From: Melioribacter sp.
GTDB taxonomy: Bacteria; Bacteroidota; Ignavibacteria; Ignavibacteriales; Melioribacteraceae
Length of the DNA stretch: 53,810 nucleotides
Direction of reading: 5' to 3'
Assembly: GCA_023250955.1 (NCBI GenBank)
Contig: JAHEZQ010000030.1
Location: forward strand, 1-53,810
Part shown: positions 13,138-21,015 of the stretch, in pieces
How positions within the stretch are numbered: position 1 is the stretch's first letter
Layout of the letters: each line of letters opens with the position of its first letter
The notes under the pieces: generated by a model
What the model was told of the DNA's origin: nothing
What the model saw: only the letters and a program-made list of their open reading frames with translations
Database searches by the model: none
Position numbers and translations under genes: made by a program

Positions 13138-16100
13138 ATGTATCAAAAGTACAGTAACTCTAAAATGTACATTGTAATTTTCTTTTTAATTATTACCGCT
13201 CTCAATTTTCAAGCACAAACTCTGCGTCAAGCATATCCTGAAGAAGTAAAACGACCTGAAATATACAACTCTGTTATCGGTTCAAATCAATTTATGTCGC
13301 CAAAAGAAACAAACGGAACTTTTGCCACCACAGTTTATACATTCGGTGATATTACAATCTTCTCATATTTCGACAATACGCAGATATCTGTTTATGATGC
13401 ATCCAATGTTTTGAAATATACTCAAACACTAACTGTTGACAGTTACAAAAATTGGACTTCAATTGGTGCCGGGGTTTACCGAATAGTCGGTAATAAGACA
13501 TATACTGTACTCGTAGGTGATGCAATTTCAACTGGTGTTGATGGTTACTTTGCAATTGATGAAGCTGGTAGAGCTGTCTCTACAAAACTCAACACATGGA
13601 TGACAAAAAATATTTGGGGTGCTGAAGATTTCATAGTATTTGCTTACCAAGATGGGACAGGATTTACAGTTAAAAATCTTTCAACTGGGGCAGTATTAGC
13701 AGCTGGAACATTGAATACTGGCCAATATTATTCTTTTAAAAATTCTGGAACAGTTCCCTACAATATGCCAATACAAGTCATCGGAACAAAACCAATTTCA
13801 GCACTATCTTATGCTGATCAGGATTATTACATACCAGCTACCAACGGAACATTTGCAGGTACTCTATTCTATGGATATTCCGGATATATCGGATCATGGG
13901 AAAATACTATTACTGTTACTTCATATGCTGATAATAACACTGTAACTGTTAAGAACCTTGCAACTGGTGCAACCATTAGTTCATTCACTCTTCAAAGAGG
14001 TCAAGTGCACAGAGATGAAGTATCAGCTCCCACATTTTGGTCAGTCACTTCATCTGGTAAGGTTACTGTTGCCAATATTCCATTTGCTGCAAGATTCTCA
14101 TCCAACTATTCATATATGACTCGTGCAATTGATGAATCCGGAAGAGGTTTTGGTACTTTGTTTTTTGTACCGACCATTCAAGGTGATTTCAAAGTATTTT
14201 CTTTCGAAAATGGAAATAGTGTAACTATTACAGAACTTGGTTTATTTGATTCATTCCCCTACACAGGTTCCACAGTTAAATATCAAGGCACACTTGATGA
14301 AGGAAAATTTTACAGTTTCAATTCAACTTATGGCCACTACGTTTATAAAGTTGAATCCACAAAAAACTGTTCGGTAGTACAGGATTACGCTGGGTATGGT
14401 GCCGACTTTATGCCTCTCGCTTACGCAGTTGATTATCCAGACCTTGGAGTTTCTTTGGCTGATATACAATACAGTAAAAACGATGCGGACATCAATGCAG
14501 GTGATAATGTTACCGTTACTGTTACTGTTCATAATTTCGGAAGTGTGGCAGCATCGAATGTTGTATGTTATGCTTATGATGGCGATCCTGATGCCGGTGG
14601 TAATGCACCTATTATTGGTACCGGTACAATTTCAAATATTGCAGTTAACGGAACTGGTACTTTTAATTTCGTTTATAAAGTTCCTGCAAGTCCGGAATAT
14701 CATCAACTTGTCGCCAAAGTTGATCCAGCCAATCAAATTACAGAATCGAATGAGTCAAATAACAAAGCTCAAAGAAGCATCAGACCAAGTATTGATCTTC
14801 AACCGCCTTTAGCAATATCAATTACTGCTCCATCAAGTTTACTTCTGAACAGCGGTATTCTTACACCAAATCCATTTACTGTTCACTTAGATATCTTTAA
14901 CACCGGCACTGTTGCAGCAACAAATGTTACTGTAACTTTAGAATTGTTTAACGGATTAACATTAGCAAGCAGTACTTTAGTTAGAAATGTTGGAACAATC
15001 AATGCAAGTACAACAGCAACTGTTGATTTTTCGATCAATGCTTTTGCTGCAACATCAGGATTTAATTTATATAGAATTACTATAACTGCAACTGGTTTAA
15101 CTCCTAAAATTATCAACAGAGCAGTGAACGTTCCCGATGCAGTACCACCATCTGCACCAACAAATTTTGCGGGACAAGTTGCCGGATCAGGTTCAGCTTC
15201 ATTCACCTGGACTGCAAATAGTGCAACAGATTTAGCGGGTTACTATTTGTATTACAGTACCGATGGCATTAACTATAATGCAACCGGTGCAAATCAAGGT
15301 AATTCCCCTGTACTGATTATAAATGCTACGGCTATTACATTAACCGGATTACCGGCCGGAAATTATTGGTTTATGCTCAAAGCTTTTGACTCATCCAATA
15401 ATCTTAGCATTGCTTCAAGTCAGATTGTTCAATTAACAATTAGTGGTTCAACAACTACTCAGGTTTTATTTTATGGAAATGGTAACGGTACAACATATAG
15501 CTTAACGTCCCCAAATTCAGGTTATGTGTTTGGTGCAAATTCATTTTTAGACGTTGGCAAATATCAAAGATTCGATTTCACCGGCAGTGCTACACTTACT
15601 GAAGCAAGAATTTATTTTTCTGTTAAAAAAACTGTTGGTACTGCTGATAACTTCACTTTAGTAGTTAGAAGCGTAGATTCAAATGGTGCACCGAAAGATC
15701 TTTTATATTCAAAAACATATTCAGTTTCTGTTATTGATACTTCCAACAAAGGTACAGTATATAATGCATTTGTTCTCGATACCCCACTTTCTGTTGCTAC
15801 ACCATTTTTTATTGGTGTTGAGTGGACCGGTACTATGGATGATTCTTTTTCAATAATGGCAGATCCAAACGGTCAAGGTAATAATCAAAAAAGAGCTTGG
15901 GAAAAGTGGAGTGATGGTACATACCATGATATGTATTCACAGTATAGTATCCAATCTGTAAACTTAGATGCCGATGCTTGGATTGCCGCCGTGTTAAGTG
16001 TTGCAACCGGTGTTGAAGACAATGTAAATGAGGTCCCTTCTAATTATGTTCTCTATCAAAATTATCCAAATCCGTTCAATCCATCTACCAAGATTCGTTA

Positions 16101-16302
16101 TTCACTACCACAGACAGCACATGTGAAATTAACATTGTATAACGTTCTTGGTGTTCAAATATTAACCTTAGTTGATTCTGAACAATCAGTTGGTAATCAT
16201 GAGGTTGAATTAAACGGTAATAATTTAGCAAGCGGTGTTTACTTTATTAAGATGAATGCAGGTAATTACTCCGTTACGAAAAAGATAATGCTGATGAAAT
16301 AA
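13138..16302 (+). CDS. Large T9SS-secreted surface protein with CARDB and FN3 domains
   Basis: The 1054 residues start with a signal peptide (cleavage near residue 28, NFQAQ). The first 400 residues contain repeated beta-rich units with similar phrases (NNTVTVKNLATGA, GTGFTVKNLSTGA) and may be IgGFc-binding-like. A CARDB domain spans about 434-545 (DLGVSLADIQ...ADINAGDNVTVTVTVHN), a second CARDB-like domain 558-665, and FN3 670-765. A beta-sandwich of unknown type runs to about 965. The last 78 residues are a T9SS sorting domain (YQNYPNPFNPSTKIRYSLP, ending KKIMLMK). The domains point to adhesion or surface display rather than catalysis. A GAGGAGG Shine-Dalgarno supports the start. Single-gene unit closed by a strong terminator. 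Confidence 0.88.
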   Translation: MYQKYSNSKMYIVIFFLIITALNFQAQTLRQAYPEEVKRPEIYNSVIGSNQFMSPKETNGTFATTVYTFGDITIFSYFDNTQISVYDASNVLKYTQTLTVDSYKNWTSIGAGVYRIVGNKTYTVLVGDAISTGVDGYFAIDEAGRAVSTKLNTWMTKNIWGAEDFIVFAYQDGTGFTVKNLSTGAVLAAGTLNTGQYYSFKNSGTVPYNMPIQVIGTKPISALSYADQDYYIPATNGTFAGTLFYGYSGYIGSWENTITVTSYADNNTVTVKNLATGATISSFTLQRGQVHRDEVSAPTFWSVTSSGKVTVANIPFAARFSSNYSYMTRAIDESGRGFGTLFFVPTIQGDFKVFSFENGNSVTITELGLFDSFPYTGSTVKYQGTLDEGKFYSFNSTYGHYVYKVESTKNCSVVQDYAGYGADFMPLAYAVDYPDLGVSLADIQYSKNDADINAGDNVTVTVTVHNFGSVAASNVVCYAYDGDPDAGGNAPIIGTGTISNIAVNGTGTFNFVYKVPASPEYHQLVAKVDPANQITESNESNNKAQRSIRPSIDLQPPLAISITAPSSLLLNSGILTPNPFTVHLDIFNTGTVAATNVTVTLELFNGLTLASSTLVRNVGTINASTTATVDFSINAFAATSGFNLYRITITATGLTPKIINRAVNVPDAVPPSAPTNFAGQVAGSGSASFTWTANSATDLAGYYLYYSTDGINYNATGANQGNSPVLIINATAITLTGLPAGNYWFMLKAFDSSNNLSIASSQIVQLTISGSTTTQVLFYGNGNGTTYSLTSPNSGYVFGANSFLDVGKYQRFDFTGSATLTEARIYFSVKKTVGTADNFTLVVRSVDSNGAPKDLLYSKTYSVSVIDTSNKGTVYNAFVLDTPLSVATPFFIGVEWTGTMDDSFSIMADPNGQGNNQKRAWEKWSDGTYHDMYSQYSIQSVNLDADAWIAAVLSVATGVEDNVNEVPSNYVLYQNYPNPFNPSTKIRYSLPQTAHVKLTLYNVLGVQILTLVDSEQSVGNHEVELNGNNLASGVYFIKMNAGNYSVTKKIMLMK

Positions 16303-16308
16303 GCTATT

Positions 16309-16340
16309 AAAAAGCCCCGCACACGCGGGGCTTTTTTTTT
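16309..16340. terminator. Strong bidirectional terminator
   Basis: AAAAGCCCCGC-ACAC-GCGGGGCTTTT is a GC-rich stem with long A and T tracts on either side. It lies between the convergent T9SS gene and the DegT aminotransferase gene and serves both. Confidence 0.93.
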
Positions 16341-17508
16341 ATTTGTTCTTTATAAATTCTGCAATCGAATCAACAACATATTTAATTTGTTCGTGAGACA
16401 ACTCAGGATAAATCGGTAATGCTAAAGAATTTTCTGCAGCATAATTAGAATTTGGGAACTCTTCATCTTTACAATTCAAATAAGAAAAACATTCTTGCCT
16501 ATGAAAAGGTACCGGATAATAAATTGCACAGCCCACTTCTTTCTTTTTTAAGAATTCTAAAAGTGCATTCCTATTTTCTACTCTAATAATATACTGGTTA
16601 TAAATATGATAATTTTTTACACTGCCAGTTTTATAAACTGCTTTCGGCAGCAATACTTTATTCTTAGAATCAAACTTCAATCTTCCTTCTTCGTCAGCTA
16701 AACCGGCTTCATTAAAATATTTTGTATATGCAGAAGCATTTTCTCTTCTCTTTGCAGACCATGCATCAAGTTGAGGAAGTTTTACTCTAAGTACTGCCGC
16801 TTGAAGTGCATCAAGTCTGAAATTTCCGCCAACTACTTTATGATAATAACTTTGTTCCATTCCATGAACGCGCATAATTCGAAGTTTCTCTGCAAGCACT
16901 TCATCATTTGTTGTTACAATTCCACCGTCTCCAAATCCTCCAAGATTTTTACTCGGGAAAAAAGAAAAGCATCCAATATCACCGATAGCTCCAACAAATC
17001 TTCCGTCTTTATACTGTGTTCCGATAGCTTGTGCGGCATCTTCAACAACTTTAATATTATGTTTTTTAGCAATTAGCATAATCTCATCCATCTCAGCACT
17101 TTGTCCGTACAGATGAACCGGAATAATCACTTTTGTCTTGGAAGTTATTCTTTCTTCAATCTTTTTTGGATCAATGTTGAATGTAACAGGATCACAATCA
17201 ACAAAAATAGGAATTGCATTTAAGCGGGCGACAACTCCAGCGGTAGCAAAGAAAGAATATGTCGGTACAATAATTTCATCACCCGGTTTAATATCTAATG
17301 CCATAAGAGCTAATAGTATTGCATCAGTACCGGATGAAACACCGATAGCTTTTTTACATTTTAGATAGCTGCAAATTTCTTCTTCAAGTTTTTGAATATC
17401 CGGACCCATAATAAAATATTGCGAATCAATAACACGCTGAACAGCTTCATCAATTTCTTTTTTTAATGATTGGTATTGAGGTTTAAGATCTAATAAGGGG
17501 ACTTTCAT
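16339..17508 (-). CDS. wlbC: DegT/DnrJ/EryC1 sugar aminotransferase (WlbC/WbpE-like)
   Basis: The 389 residues are a full-length PLP-dependent NDP-sugar aminotransferase. The Schiff-base lysine is Lys187 in FSFFPSKNLGG. SSGTDAILLAL and VEDAAQAIG are the phosphate- and ring-contacting segments. The N-terminus (VPLLDLKPQYQSLKKEID) fits WlbC/WbpE, which aminate C3 of UDP-3-keto-GlcNAcA. The adjacent WlbA- and WlbB-like genes complete the three steps to UDP-2,3-diacetamido-2,3-dideoxyglucuronate. The gene is separated from wlbB by 622 bp, almost all occupied by the inverted-repeat-flanked four-helix-bundle unit. A GGAG Shine-Dalgarno precedes the ATG. Confidence 0.85.
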   Translation of the reverse strand: MKVPLLDLKPQYQSLKKEIDEAVQRVIDSQYFIMGPDIQKLEEEICSYLKCKKAIGVSSGTDAILLALMALDIKPGDEIIVPTYSFFATAGVVARLNAIPIFVDCDPVTFNIDPKKIEERITSKTKVIIPVHLYGQSAEMDEIMLIAKKHNIKVVEDAAQAIGTQYKDGRFVGAIGDIGCFSFFPSKNLGGFGDGGIVTTNDEVLAEKLRIMRVHGMEQSYYHKVVGGNFRLDALQAAVLRVKLPQLDAWSAKRRENASAYTKYFNEAGLADEEGRLKFDSKNKVLLPKAVYKTGSVKNYHIYNQYIIRVENRNALLEFLKKKEVGCAIYYPVPFHRQECFSYLNCKDEEFPNSNYAAENSLALPIYPELSHEQIKYVVDSIAEFIKNK

Positions 17509-17570
17509 TTTAACTCCAGTTTAAAGTACGAAATTAAACACGCTATAGAATGAATTCAGTATTGAATGAA

Positions 17571-17603
17571 GAATGCTTGATTGATTGAATGTTTGAATGC
17601 TTG
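17571..17603 (+). repeat. 33-bp inverted repeat, left arm
   Basis: This arm is complementary to 18099-18131 at 30 of 33 positions. The inner 22 bases (17582-17603 against 18099-18120) are perfect. The sequence is built from degenerate TTGAATG/ATGCTTG heptamer-like words. It lies 15 bases past the stop of the four-helix-bundle gene. Confidence 0.85.
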
Positions 17604-17617
17604 ATTTTACAAATGAT

Positions 17618-18043
17618 TTATTCATAGTCTAAATTCCATTCTTGTCCGGAATTTATTCTGTTGATTAAACTTTTATTCATTTTGATTAATCCATTTTCAA
17701 ATTCATATAATTTGGCATCGTAATCATTAAAATCATCTTCTAGAATTTGTTCAGCATTAAAAAGTGTAAATATCTGTGAATAATTTTCTGCTGATGATGC
17801 TAAAGCAATTTCATAAAATCTTAATGTTTCTTTTATACTTCTTCTTGAATACCCTTCTGCAATGTTACTTGATATTGATAAAGCTGAATCTTCGATCTGA
17901 GCTTTTACTTTAAATGGTATATCTCGATTCTTCTGTATCACATTATGAACTTGACGATAAATCTCTACCGATTTTTTCCATATTTCAAGTTTTCGAAAAC
18001 CACGATTAATATTTCTATTCCTTTCTAAAAACTCACTCTTCAT
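17618..18043 (-). CDS. Four-helix-bundle protein (23S rRNA intervening sequence/S23 family)
   Basis: From the ATG at 18043 the protein has 141 residues. FRKLEIWKKSVEIYRQVHNV, SSNIAEGYSRRS and the helical SIKETLRFYEIALASSAE segment are hallmarks of the S23/IVP family (TIGR02436 type). Members form pentameric four-helix bundles, and the related Avd protein works with diversity-generating reverse transcriptases. No reverse transcriptase or variable repeat is present here. Most members have no known function. I chose the ATG at 18043 over the upstream TTG at 18067 because it follows a G-rich GGGGGGAG tract. The gene lies inside 33-bp inverted repeats in a sugar operon. Confidence 0.88.
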   Translation of the reverse strand: MKSEFLERNRNINRGFRKLEIWKKSVEIYRQVHNVIQKNRDIPFKVKAQIEDSALSISSNIAEGYSRRSIKETLRFYEIALASSAENYSQIFTLFNAEQILEDDFNDYDAKLYEFENGLIKMNKSLINRINSGQEWNLDYE

Positions 18044-18098
18044 ACTCCCCCCAATAATCAATTTCAAAATATTTCAATCACCCAAACATCCATGCAAC

Positions 18099-18131
18099 CA
18101 AGCATTCAAACATTCAATCACCCAAGCATCC
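18099..18131 (-). repeat. 33-bp inverted repeat, right arm
   Basis: This arm is the reverse complement of the left arm at 17571-17603 with three mismatches. Its outer base coincides with the last base of the wlbB stop codon. Further degenerate copies of the same word (CAATCACCCAAACATC, at 18074-18089) sit just inside it. Confidence 0.85.
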
Positions 18132-18706
18132 TAACATTCTATCACTACACCCTTTTCCAATTTGTATTTCTTTTTAGATTTCTCACAGTACGCAATTCCG
18201 CTATCGTCGAATATTAATTTCTGCCCGGCTTCACTTAACCACCCAACTTGCTTTGCCGGATTGCCGACAACCAATGCATAATCCGGGACATCTTTCGTAA
18301 CAACAGCACCTGCACCAATGAATGCGAATTTTCCAATTGTGTGACCGCAAATAATTGTAGAGTTAGCACCGAGTGATGCGCCTTCTTTAACTAATGTTTT
18401 GATATAATATCTTGAACCAACTTGAGGATACTTACTTCTTGGGTCAATAATATTTGTGAAGACCATAGAAGGACCGCAAAAAACAAAATCTTCAAGAGTT
18501 ACACCTTCATAAACAGAAACGTTGTTTTGTATCTTGACAAAATTTCCAATTACAACATTTGAACCGACATTTACATTTTGACCTAAGATGCAATTCTTAC
18601 CAATCTTTGCACCGGACTGTATATGTGAAAAGTGCCATACTTTTGTTCCGTCACCGATTTCAACGTTTTCATCAATGTAAGCAGATTCATGTTTGAAATA
18701 ATTCAT
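18131..18706 (-). CDS. wlbB: Hexapeptide-repeat N-acetyltransferase (WlbB/WbpD-like)
   Basis: The 191 residues form a left-handed beta-helix of hexapeptide repeats (YIDENVEIGDGTKVWHFSHI, AKIGKNCILGQNVNVGSNVVIGN). The C-terminal segment VPDYALVVGNPAKQVGWLSEAG is diagnostic of WbpD/WlbB. The family acetylates the C3 amine of UDP-GlcNAc3NA with acetyl-CoA. The catalytic histidine is expected within the helix. It lies four bases after wlbA and has a GAGGTG Shine-Dalgarno. It forms the third enzymatic step with the aminotransferase on the other side of the four-helix-bundle insert. Confidence 0.88.
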   Translation of the reverse strand: MNYFKHESAYIDENVEIGDGTKVWHFSHIQSGAKIGKNCILGQNVNVGSNVVIGNFVKIQNNVSVYEGVTLEDFVFCGPSMVFTNIIDPRSKYPQVGSRYYIKTLVKEGASLGANSTIICGHTIGKFAFIGAGAVVTKDVPDYALVVGNPAKQVGWLSEAGQKLIFDDSGIAYCEKSKKKYKLEKGVVIEC

Positions 18707-18710
18707 TCTT

Positions 18711-19658
18711 TCACCTCAAATTATTTTGAAGAAAGGGGTGAACAAAATCGTTCCTAGTTGAAACTTTTGCAAAACGTATATTGTAAACTGTCTCGATCGA
18801 AGGTCGTGAATCAGATATTCCTAATCCATTTCCGTTTAATATTTCTCGATATACCTTTGTGTGAAGTTCTGTAAATCCTTCCGAGAATTCTACTTCATTG
18901 CCATCAATTTTTATGGAACGGTAAGTCGTTTTTTTACGCGATTTAATTTCTGTAGGTAAATCATTTTCATCAATAGAAAGAAACCATTTAACATTTGCAT
19001 TTTTTAATTCAAACACTCCCGACATTTTTTTATTATCAGAAAGATAAACATCACTTTTCTGAACCTCTCCGAACAACCATAATATTAGATCAAAAAGATG
19101 TATACCAATGTTAGTTGCAATGCCTCCGCTCTTTTCATCTTCACCCTTCCATGAATAATGATACCAATTCCCTCTTGAAGAAATATAAGTCAGTTCTACT
19201 TCATGTTTTTTATTCGAAGAAGTTTTTAACTCTTCTTTAAGTTTTATTATCGAAGGATGATATCTCAACTGCATGACTGTATAAACTTTTTTCCCACTTT
19301 TCAATTCAAGTTCTTCCAGCGAATCTAAATTTTGAGGATAAAGAACAATTGGTTTTTCACAAATTACATTTGCACCAAGATTTAATCCCAATCTGATCTG
19401 TGAATCGTGAAAATAATTTGGAGAGCAGACACTTAAATAATCAATCTTAGAATCATTATGCTGTGAAAGTTTTACAAGATGTCTTTCAAATCTTTCATAC
19501 TCATTAAAGTAATCGGCATGCGGAAAGAATTGATCCAACACTCCAACAGAATCGTGAGGATCGAACGATGCAACAAGAAGATTCCCGGTTTCTTTAATTG
19601 CTTTCAAGTGACGTGGAGCTATATAACCCGCTGTTCCCGTTAATGCAAATCTTTTCAT
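18711..19658 (-). CDS. wlbA: UDP-GlcNAcA 3-dehydrogenase (WlbA/WbpB-like), Gfo/Idh/MocA family
   Basis: Starting at the ATG at 19658 the product has 315 residues and opens MKRFALTGTAGYIAPRHLKA, very close to WlbA. The N-terminal Rossmann fold binds NAD. CEKPIVL carries the conserved lysine of the Gfo/Idh/MocA active site, and GGIATNIGIHLFD holds the conserved histidine. An in-frame extension to 19694 adds MLNLSIKLLHFV, which does not match the family and is probably untranslated. First gene of the wlb-like series. It makes the 3-keto sugar for the aminotransferase. The 103-bp gap to the divergent transporter gene should contain its promoter. Confidence 0.87.
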   Translation of the reverse strand: MKRFALTGTAGYIAPRHLKAIKETGNLLVASFDPHDSVGVLDQFFPHADYFNEYERFERHLVKLSQHNDSKIDYLSVCSPNYFHDSQIRLGLNLGANVICEKPIVLYPQNLDSLEELELKSGKKVYTVMQLRYHPSIIKLKEELKTSSNKKHEVELTYISSRGNWYHYSWKGEDEKSGGIATNIGIHLFDLILWLFGEVQKSDVYLSDNKKMSGVFELKNANVKWFLSIDENDLPTEIKSRKKTTYRSIKIDGNEVEFSEGFTELHTKVYREILNGNGLGISDSRPSIETVYNIRFAKVSTRNDFVHPFLQNNLR

Positions 19659-19761
19659 AACAAAGTGTAATAATTTTATTGACAAATTTAGCAAATAGTG
19701 TTTGAATAACTATATGGAATTAGATTAAATTTGTTCAACTTCAAATCGTATAGGAGTAATT

Positions 19762-21015
19762 GTGAATCTTACTGCAGAACTTCAAAAAGTAAAATCCGGT
19801 TTTCATCGTTCATTCTGGGTTGCAAATGGAATGGAGTTGTTCGAACGGTTAGCTTATTACGGTCAGCAAATTGTTTTTGTGGTTTACCTAAGAAATAATT
19901 TAGGATTTACTGAATCTGAAGCCGGACAACTTTCCGGTATGTTCGGAGGATTGATTTATTTATTACCAATTCTCGCCGGTACCCTTGCAGATAAATGGGG
20001 ATTCCGCCGAGCATTCAGTATTGCATTTTCAATTCTTGCTATTGGATATTTTTTAATCGGCTCAATGGGAATGTCAGCATTCTCCGGTATATATGGAACA
20101 GAACCTAATTACTGGCTGCTAATGAGCTTCCTTGTATTGACAGCATTAGGCGGATCATTTATTAAACCGTCGGTTCTTGGAACTGTTGCGGTTACTTCTA
20201 AAGAAGAAGTTAAATCTCTCGGCTATGCAATTTATTATTGGCTGGTAAATATCGGTGCAATGGTTGGACCAACAATAGCTTACTTTGTACGAGATAGTTT
20301 TGGTAATGAATTTGTTTATCTGGTATCATCAGCAAGTTGTATTGCAATGCTTGCAGTTAATTTATTGTTTTATAAGAACGCAAAAGAAGCCGTGGTAGTT
20401 GAATCATTTGGGAAAAAAATTACCAATTTGTTTGTTGTACTTGGCAATTTCAAATTCATGATCTTTCTATTAATCTACTCGCTTTATTGGATTATTTTTT
20501 GGCAAGAGTTTATCATAGTTCCTTATTATGTAACTGATTACATACCAAATTTTTTCTCTTACGAAATTCTACAATCTTGGTCCGGTGCAGGCGCTATAAT
20601 TCTTTTTCAAATACCAATTAATAGATTGACAAAAAAAATGTCAACACCGAATGCTATTCTAAGCGGATTTGCAGTTTCAAGTTTGATTTGGATTATTATT
20701 TGGATTAATCCGAGTATTATAACTATTGCAGCCGGAATTATTGCATTTGGTATCGGTGAGGCAATGCAAGCGCCAAGATATTATGAATATATTTCAAAGA
20801 TAGCACCTGAAGGTCAGCAAGGGCTATATCAAGGTTATGCATTCTTACCAATTGCTATTGCACGATTTGTAGGAGACCCGTTCGGCGGATGGTTATATCA
20901 AACTTCGAAAGCATCAGGCCATCCGGAATATGTTTGGTATTCAATGATTGCTATCGGTTTATCTGCTGCGTTTTTTATGTACTTGTATAATAAATTCGTT
21001 GTGAAAGAAAAATAA
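19762..21015 (+). CDS. POT/PTR2-like major facilitator transporter
   Basis: The 417 residues show about 12 hydrophobic segments. The N-terminal ANGMELFERLAYYGQQIVF recalls the E-x-F-E-R-x-x-Y-Y-G proton-coupling motif of oligopeptide (POT/PTR2) transporters. LADKWGFRRAF is the MFS loop 2-3 motif. The length is a little short for classical POT proteins, and substrates could be peptides or another small solute. The start is GTG, with TAGGAG six bases upstream. It is divergent from wlbA and is followed by a palindromic repeat pair that may serve as terminator. Confidence 0.8.
   Translation: MNLTAELQKVKSGFHRSFWVANGMELFERLAYYGQQIVFVVYLRNNLGFTESEAGQLSGMFGGLIYLLPILAGTLADKWGFRRAFSIAFSILAIGYFLIGSMGMSAFSGIYGTEPNYWLLMSFLVLTALGGSFIKPSVLGTVAVTSKEEVKSLGYAIYYWLVNIGAMVGPTIAYFVRDSFGNEFVYLVSSASCIAMLAVNLLFYKNAKEAVVVESFGKKITNLFVVLGNFKFMIFLLIYSLYWIIFWQEFIIVPYYVTDYIPNFFSYEILQSWSGAGAIILFQIPINRLTKKMSTPNAILSGFAVSSLIWIIIWINPSIITIAAGIIAFGIGEAMQAPRYYEYISKIAPEGQQGLYQGYAFLPIAIARFVGDPFGGWLYQTSKASGHPEYVWYSMIAIGLSAAFFMYLYNKFVVKEK

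Follow-up and report, generated by a model that had tools for sequence, protein, structure and literature searches.

S23-family genes between mirrored short-word arrays: a candidate class of inserted cassettes, traced from a Melioribacter sugar operon

An S23 gene between two mirrored arrays

We analysed a 53,810-nt stretch of Melioribacter sp. DNA (contig JAHEZQ010000030.1, assembly GCA_023250955.1; the whole stretch is referred to as the window) in which a gene of the S23 family, framed by inverted arms, stands between two genes of a sugar operon. Of the 33 positions of the arms (17571-17603 and 18099-18131), 30 pair, 22 of them in one unbroken run. Since 40 shuffles of both flanks gave at best 22 and on average 18.8 pairing positions of 33, the arms, first pointed out in an earlier note on this DNA, are real. 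A repeat search returned an inverted match of 37 nt at 89% (17570-17606 and 18096-18132). Both arms belong to arrays of period 8: a downstream (D) array at 17571-17606, after the S23 stop codon, and an upstream (U) array at 18075-18146, which lies before the S23 start and reaches the stop codon and last codons of the neighbouring gene wlbB. The arms are mirrored tandem arrays of a short, 8-nt word and not one fixed terminal repeat. The wlbB stop codon occupies 18131-18133 on the minus strand and, as the same note had it, the right arm extends to the last base of that codon; the array itself continues into the last codons of wlbB.

The arms enclose a single open reading frame (ORF), a match to Pfam family 23S_rRNA_IVP (PF05635, E-value 4.6e-20) whose score of 72.3 bits lies above the curated cut-off of 33.8 and places it in the family. 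The gene runs on the minus strand from ATG to stop at 17618-18043, supported by its codons; the mechanically called frame opens further upstream, at TTG 18067. Its AlphaFold2 model (mean predicted local distance difference test score 91.8) is a four-helix bundle, the closest solved folds being 2GSC (E-value 9.1e-6) and 2RLD (E-value 3.7e-4), with five chains each. The Avd protein of diversity-generating retroelements (4DWL, 8UB7; 10–14% sequence identity) is a weaker structural match. As PF05635 is the only Pfam family matched by the single gene, no transposase is encoded within the unit of about 0.5–0.6 kb, which we call a cassette.

The putative wlb names of the neighbouring genes come from the earlier note, and their Pfam domains agree with them. 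Directly upstream lies a wlbB-like hexapeptide transferase gene (18131-18706, minus strand), which in cassette-free relatives overlaps the start of the next gene. That next gene, directly downstream of the cassette, encodes a DegT/DnrJ/EryC1 aminotransferase by Pfam and by comparison of the junctions (16339-17508, minus strand), and an oxidoreductase gene is next in line. A search of positions 16000-20000 with Rfam at the gathering score gave no match; the cassette sits between two protein genes and not in a 23S rRNA gene.

Mirrored arrays at other S23 loci and at empty and occupied sites

Loci and genomes are numbered below with the prefixes L and G, and the match between the two flanks of a locus was scored by one scheme, with thresholds of 28 and 24. 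The window's genome contains seven S23 genes. When their flanks were read by eye, six carried mirrored word arrays, each with a word of its own (ACAGTTA-like, AATCAGAAATAAG-like, TTATGAATT-like, TTGAATG-like, ATTGTTAAATGG-like and TTGATGGA-like); by score, four of the seven loci reach 28 and five reach 24, the two below being L003 (22) and L006 (16). S23 genes were present in all 12 genomes of the genus that were searched, at 4 to 17 per genome. Inverted flank matches of at least 28 were detected at 61 of these 105 loci, compared with 6 of 105 in direct orientation and 25 of 1564 comparisons across loci. Among 93 other ORFs of 80–200 codons in the same genome, none reached this level in inverted orientation (four reached at least 24) and two did so in direct orientation, while a sliding-window control gave 15 of 4061 windows with an inverted score of at least 28.

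The association extends beyond the genus. In a draw from the phylum, 44 of 60 genomes had S23 genes; 29 new loci were obtained, 28 of them scorable, with inverted scores of at least 28 at 11 and of at least 24 at 16 (direct, 4 of 28 at 28). In a set of named loci from Pedobacter, Chitinophagaceae, Anaerolineales, Acidobacteria, Opitutaceae, SAR324 and others, 63 of 80 had inverted matches of at least 28 and 10 of 80 direct ones; the cross-locus control of this set is inflated (289/1259), many of its loci being the same site. S23 also matched 24 plasmid records, mostly cyanobacterial. Six of them were opened, and all six gave inverted scores of 38–55 and lag 7 as the best period on both sides; they lie at junctions such as cas6/cas4 or beside tra genes. 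The arms accompany other members of the S23 family, and the layout is common. Three loci were left out (L104, with its match outside the stretch; L078, with a short flank; L257, with no ORF found), and a few fragments were not analysed separately.

Several observations were made in passing. On plasmids of Pseudanabaena and Anabaena (L339, L340), S23 and long heptamer arrays lie between cas6 and cas4 of CRISPR loci. At L080 (G011:C2:266000-270900), several S23 genes or fragments stand in a row within 3 kb. Genes of another family in the genus, PF13366 (PDDEXK_3, a predicted nuclease, also called 'GxxExxY'; L345-L360, for example L348, L349 and L351), often have inverted arrays of a different word type (CACGGATNA, GCAGAGAC), and may perhaps be a parallel kind of cassette. 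Seven of 12 scored PF13366 loci, for which there is no control set, had inverted scores of at least 31, up to 63, and four more had no ORF found.

In the stretch after the host stop codon (168 loci), lags 7, 14 and 21 stand out among lags 3-21 at 0.50, 0.47 and 0.43, where 204 control gene ends gave about 0.31, and lag 8 shows a small rise (0.320 vs 0.296). Among 214 loci, the upstream array passed the array threshold at 143 and the downstream array at 150, with period 7 in 119 and 129 of them, respectively, whereas shuffled flanks passed at 4 of 214. Where both arrays passed, the two arms had the same period in 114 of 119 loci, and word similarity within a locus was 0.824 vs 0.435 at other sites. 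A period could be called in 161 loci: 7 nt in 139, 8 nt in 16, 6 nt in four and 9 nt in two. Period-7 arrays peak at five words (27 of 65 D arms and 17 of 66 U arms, counted over genus and phylum loci and not one per site); this mode holds at lower thresholds, yet it is merely a peak, and arrays reach 18 words. We also considered whether 7- and 8-nt words serve to place a stop codon in each of the three frames, and rejected this: such stops occur in 50% of U arrays vs 25% after shuffling (52 loci, one per site) but in 46% of D arrays as well, and are not distinctive.

Such arrays could be ordinary products of polymerase slippage, arising near S23 genes or anywhere, with the mirror match being secondary. 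Bacterial heptamer repeats have indeed been attributed to a 7-nt polymerase contact, as reported in the available text of PMC4692102 and PMC4679880. We consider this explanation highly improbable here. Arrays are rare away from S23: in 254 kb of the window's genome (ten stretches and the window) three lag-7 arrays reached a score of 14, and no lag-8 arrays occurred other than the two arms of the wlb cassette. Slippage would not be expected to produce a mirror layout or a word common to both arms, and mirror-paired arrays scoring at least 28 were absent around the 93 control ORFs; nor does it fit with word lengths of 6 or 8 that are tied to particular S23 clades (see below). Solo arrays without an adjacent S23 gene were seen at the ends of other genes at L114:3838-3878 (G000:C43, around 23838) and L115:19831-19874 (G000:C50), and are possible scars of lost cassettes.

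We compared orthologous junctions with and without S23. The junctions were read by eye, and the arrays blur the boundary; four junctions of the wlbB set (L121, L128, L133, L140) and one of the nuoC-nuoD set (L171) were not located. Relatives with an uninterrupted wlbB-aminotransferase junction, which the earlier note had proposed to look for, do exist: wlbB overlaps the aminotransferase start in G011, G001, G016 and G013, and a gap of 50 nt separates the two genes in G002. The junction is occupied by S23 with arms in the window, G010 and G009. In G007 the word persists at the wlbB end, but the interval up to the aminotransferase gene contains no ORF of more than 60 codons. The wlbB loci of G002, G007, G011, G001, G016 and G013 yielded no S23-like ORF. 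The nuoC-nuoD junction similarly is empty, with the TGA overlapping the next ATG, in G000, G005 and G015, and occupied in G002, G009 and G011 and in other genera (G019, G020, G037); another S23 type is present at the G028 locus, and G001 has apparently kept the right arm alone. At orthologous junctions gene and arms are thus present or absent together, as one unit that can be acquired or lost.

Arms without a gene were also encountered. At a third site in G019 (L228:2053 onward) there is an arm pair lacking the gene, which we at first considered a lost cassette; that interpretation was rejected when an intact cassette with the same word was found one gene upstream (L228:1064-1420). The pair fits a gene-less copy or a deletion, and is perhaps a non-autonomous copy. 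Gene-less CACGGAT-like inverted repeats were observed at L205, L206, L217 and the wlbB site of G007 (L122), where relatives have S23 cassettes; the same junctions seem to attract different elements.

S23 usually lies in sense orientation to the host genes. Within the genus, the upstream gene is co-directional with S23 at 94 of 101 loci, antisense at none and not identified at seven, and the downstream gene is co-directional at 89, convergent at 10 and not identified at two (loci near contig ends are omitted, five in the genus set and three in the other sets). Elsewhere, seven of 28 phylum loci and seven of 77 named loci have an antisense upstream gene, and a co-directional one is found at 21 and 68, respectively; on a plasmid, the S23 gene of L341 runs antisense to the genes on both sides. 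A strict sense orientation therefore holds in the genus and is rejected as a universal rule. With one locus taken per site, the upstream array of 17 of 22 genus loci began no later than the last base of the host stop codon (median -3).

Coupling of word and protein

The strongest new result, from a comparison of about 200 related genes, is that S23 protein and word are coupled: word length and sequence track the protein clade more than the site. For a locus and its nearest protein neighbour at a different site, the period was the same in 150 of 161 loci, and stricter site clusters gave the same table. Between different sites, word similarity was 0.40–0.44 at protein identities below 50% and 0.72 at identities of at least 60% (200 pairs). 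With one locus per site, word and protein distances were correlated (Mantel rho 0.317 for n = 44 and 0.274 for n = 51; 0 of 2000 permutations each), and the period changed nine times on the protein tree compared with 11.6 times after shuffling (P-value 0.0055) or, with finer sites, nine compared with 14.3 (0 of 2000).

Individual clades illustrate the pattern. In one period-8 clade, AGTNNCT-type words recur from site to site within the genus (L008, L011, L020, L022) and again in a different family of the phylum (L232); L238 and L243 are members as judged by protein and period, and their words diverge more. The S23 protein of the wlb cassette groups with L076 from the same site and L080 from another, all of period 8, and a period-6 clade unites L070, L072 and L074 with L083 from another site. 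In G021 (L212), at a third site between an HD gene and a leuC-like gene, the S23 protein is 74% identical to that of L005, which occupies another site, and the word is L005-like. Since word length and sequence follow the protein, the suggestion of the earlier note that TTGAATG-like words are a recognition unit gains support, although recognition itself is an inference.

We also considered that words might be copied from the host gene end, because arrays begin at the host stop codon and the last 7 nt of the host gene are more like the 7 nt that follow (0.471) than is the case at control gene ends (0.342). A comparison of matched and mismatched host tails at one site (12 occupied loci) gave only a weak difference, with means of 8.17 and 7.77 of 12 (P-value 0.06). 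At 21 of 181 loci the host tail agreed with the downstream arm of that locus in at least 10 of 12 positions, compared with 21 of 1799 across loci. Empty nitrilase sites carry CAGAAATAG, which is close to the word of occupied sites. The clade pattern accounts for the words better and the host-seeded origin was rejected, but some host contribution to the words may exist.

Could the coupling reflect control of expression and not insertion? S23 might bind the array in its own mRNA, each subunit taking one word, and control its own translation or that of its neighbours, with no present mobility. The word following the protein fits such autoregulation, and so do the peak at five words and the five-chained nearest folds; a Xanthomonas S23 protein is described as a homopentamer in the available text of PMC4990558. 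On RNA, however, one arm would present the word and the other its complement, so that a mirror copy is unneeded, and the patchy presence and absence of cassettes and the gene-less arms resemble insertion and loss. We regard autoregulation as improbable.

A role of the arms in RNA is a further alternative: they would pair in the operon mRNA, RNase III would cut the stem and free the S23 message, and both host genes would tolerate the insert. The sense transcript is indeed predicted to fold into a long stem (-138.5 kcal/mol, z -4.7), and an upstream gene antisense to S23 was seen at none of the 101 genus loci. Arm identity is 0.875 in register and 0.673 one word off (n = 55), a difference biased upward because the best-scoring register was chosen. 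There is also a precedent: the available text of PMC4990558 describes, for the Coxiella 23S intervening sequence, a 28-bp terminal stem cleaved by RNase III, and two or three tandem heptamers with a degenerate one directly before the S23 start. The pattern of mismatches between the arms speaks against selection for such a stem. Although all three mismatches of the 33-nt wlb arms are G·U-compatible, and an earlier count with gapped alignments (72 loci) gave 66 G·U-type vs 52 A·C-type mismatches, there was no G·U excess over 133 loci (90 G·U-type vs 99 A·C-type, p = 0.56). Selection for an RNA stem is thus not supported, and a cause at the DNA level, either copying or a protein requiring the two ends, would account better for the likeness of the arms. 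Furthermore, orientation is looser outside the genus, and a stem alone leaves both the link between word and clade and the tandem words of fixed length unexplained. RNA processing is unlikely as the main account.

We favour, with a probability of roughly 60%, a widespread small inserted cassette, composed of a word array, an S23 gene and an inverted word array, whose S23 protein recognises its own end arrays. The cassette would insert where an expressed gene ends, at its stop codon, and mostly in the sense direction, so that transcription of S23 could be supplied by the upstream host gene. Its protein would recognise the end arrays, perhaps with one word per subunit, which is tempting but unproved, and this recognition would be needed to keep or to move the cassette.

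A number of observations weigh against this interpretation. In the genus, 44 of 105 loci score below 28. An orthologous group of 11 S23 genes in 11 genomes (L006, L092-L094, L096, L097, L099-L103), with the same two neighbours, has no matching arms (scores 14–20). At L339, on a plasmid, the direct match scores higher (132) than the inverted match (50), with long arrays in both orientations. A smaller effect of site remains, as same-site pairs at 30–50% protein identity have a word similarity of about 0.50 vs 0.40–0.43 for different sites; L005, L073 and L075, of period 8, have nearest other-site neighbours of period 7; and the link between word and protein could come partly from joint travel after each insertion. 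S23 proteins have no recognised catalytic domain, hence a mover is missing, and no excision or movement of a cassette was observed in the genomes compared. The armless group of 11 serves as a kind of internal negative control. As an observation in its own right, this group looks domesticated and could reveal the role of the protein itself.

S23 proteins have solved structures and no known function, while heptamer repeats have long been reported without a mechanism. The coupling of word and protein, together with the mirrored arrays, ties these two puzzles together. It also suggests a class of inserted elements overlooked by searches for repeats or transposases, which would miss it because each copy has its own word.

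Relation to known systems

The Avd protein of diversity-generating retroelements resembles the S23 protein of the wlb cassette in its four-helix-bundle fold, by a weak match, and differs from it in sequence at 10–14% identity. The genes beside the cassette are of sugar-pathway types by Pfam; no reverse transcriptase search was made.

Insertion sequences with terminal inverted repeats are alike in having a gene between inverted ends and in being present or absent at orthologous sites, as the wlb cassette is. They differ in that the one gene of the cassette is not a transposase, its ends are word arrays variable in order and number, and it prefers the sense side of a stop codon.

Close counterparts are the 23S rRNA intervening sequences with an S23 ORF, of Coxiella and of Leptospira, which is named in the available text of PMC4990558. 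According to that text, they too lie in a transcribed host locus, with inverted arms on either side of an S23 ORF and, in Coxiella, tandem heptamers beside the S23 start; complementary terminal arms around an ORF are likewise found in the wlb cassette. The host differs, being a helix of 23S rRNA there and a protein-coding operon junction here, with word lengths of 6, 7 or 8 that go with the protein clade. The earlier note had proposed a mobile or RNA-processed cassette of this design, transplanted into an mRNA. An inserted cassette of like design is supported; arms kept as an RNA-processing stem and an rRNA origin are not. As to the origin, the loci fetched ahead of the plasmid set had no exact match to five 23S motifs, a weak test, and flanking protein genes are usual in our sample.

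Heptamer arrays are also found in bacteria at large, among them the short tandemly repeated repetitive (STRR) sequences of cyanobacteria. The available texts describe arrays of TAACTGA (PMC4679880), of GGGAATC and GGGGA(C/T)T (PMC4692102) and of Geobacter heptanucleotides (PMC2700814), with occurrences in Beggiatoaceae, cyanobacteria, Bacteroidetes, Xanthomonas, Nostoc and Geobacter; in Geobacter one class consists of five tandem heptanucleotides and another of pairs of sites on opposite strands (PMC2700814). As described there, these arrays resemble ours in their 7-nt tandem words and in being mostly intergenic, near stop or start codons. They differ in having no described link to an S23 gene or to a word-matched protein: term searches in the available texts of PMC4679880, PMC4692102 and PMC2700814 gave no mention of S23 or of a four-helix protein, and in the open-access literature we found no report joining heptamer arrays to S23 genes outside rRNA. 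We tentatively suggest, as a possible and still doubtful generalisation, that the unexplained bacterial heptamer arrays (cyanobacterial STRRs, TAACTGA and similar) could largely be ends, or leftover ends, of one class of transposase-free minimal mobile cassettes, in which an S23 pentamer would read its own array, one 6–8-nt word per subunit, protein and word would co-evolve, and the rRNA intervening sequences would be the best-known members.
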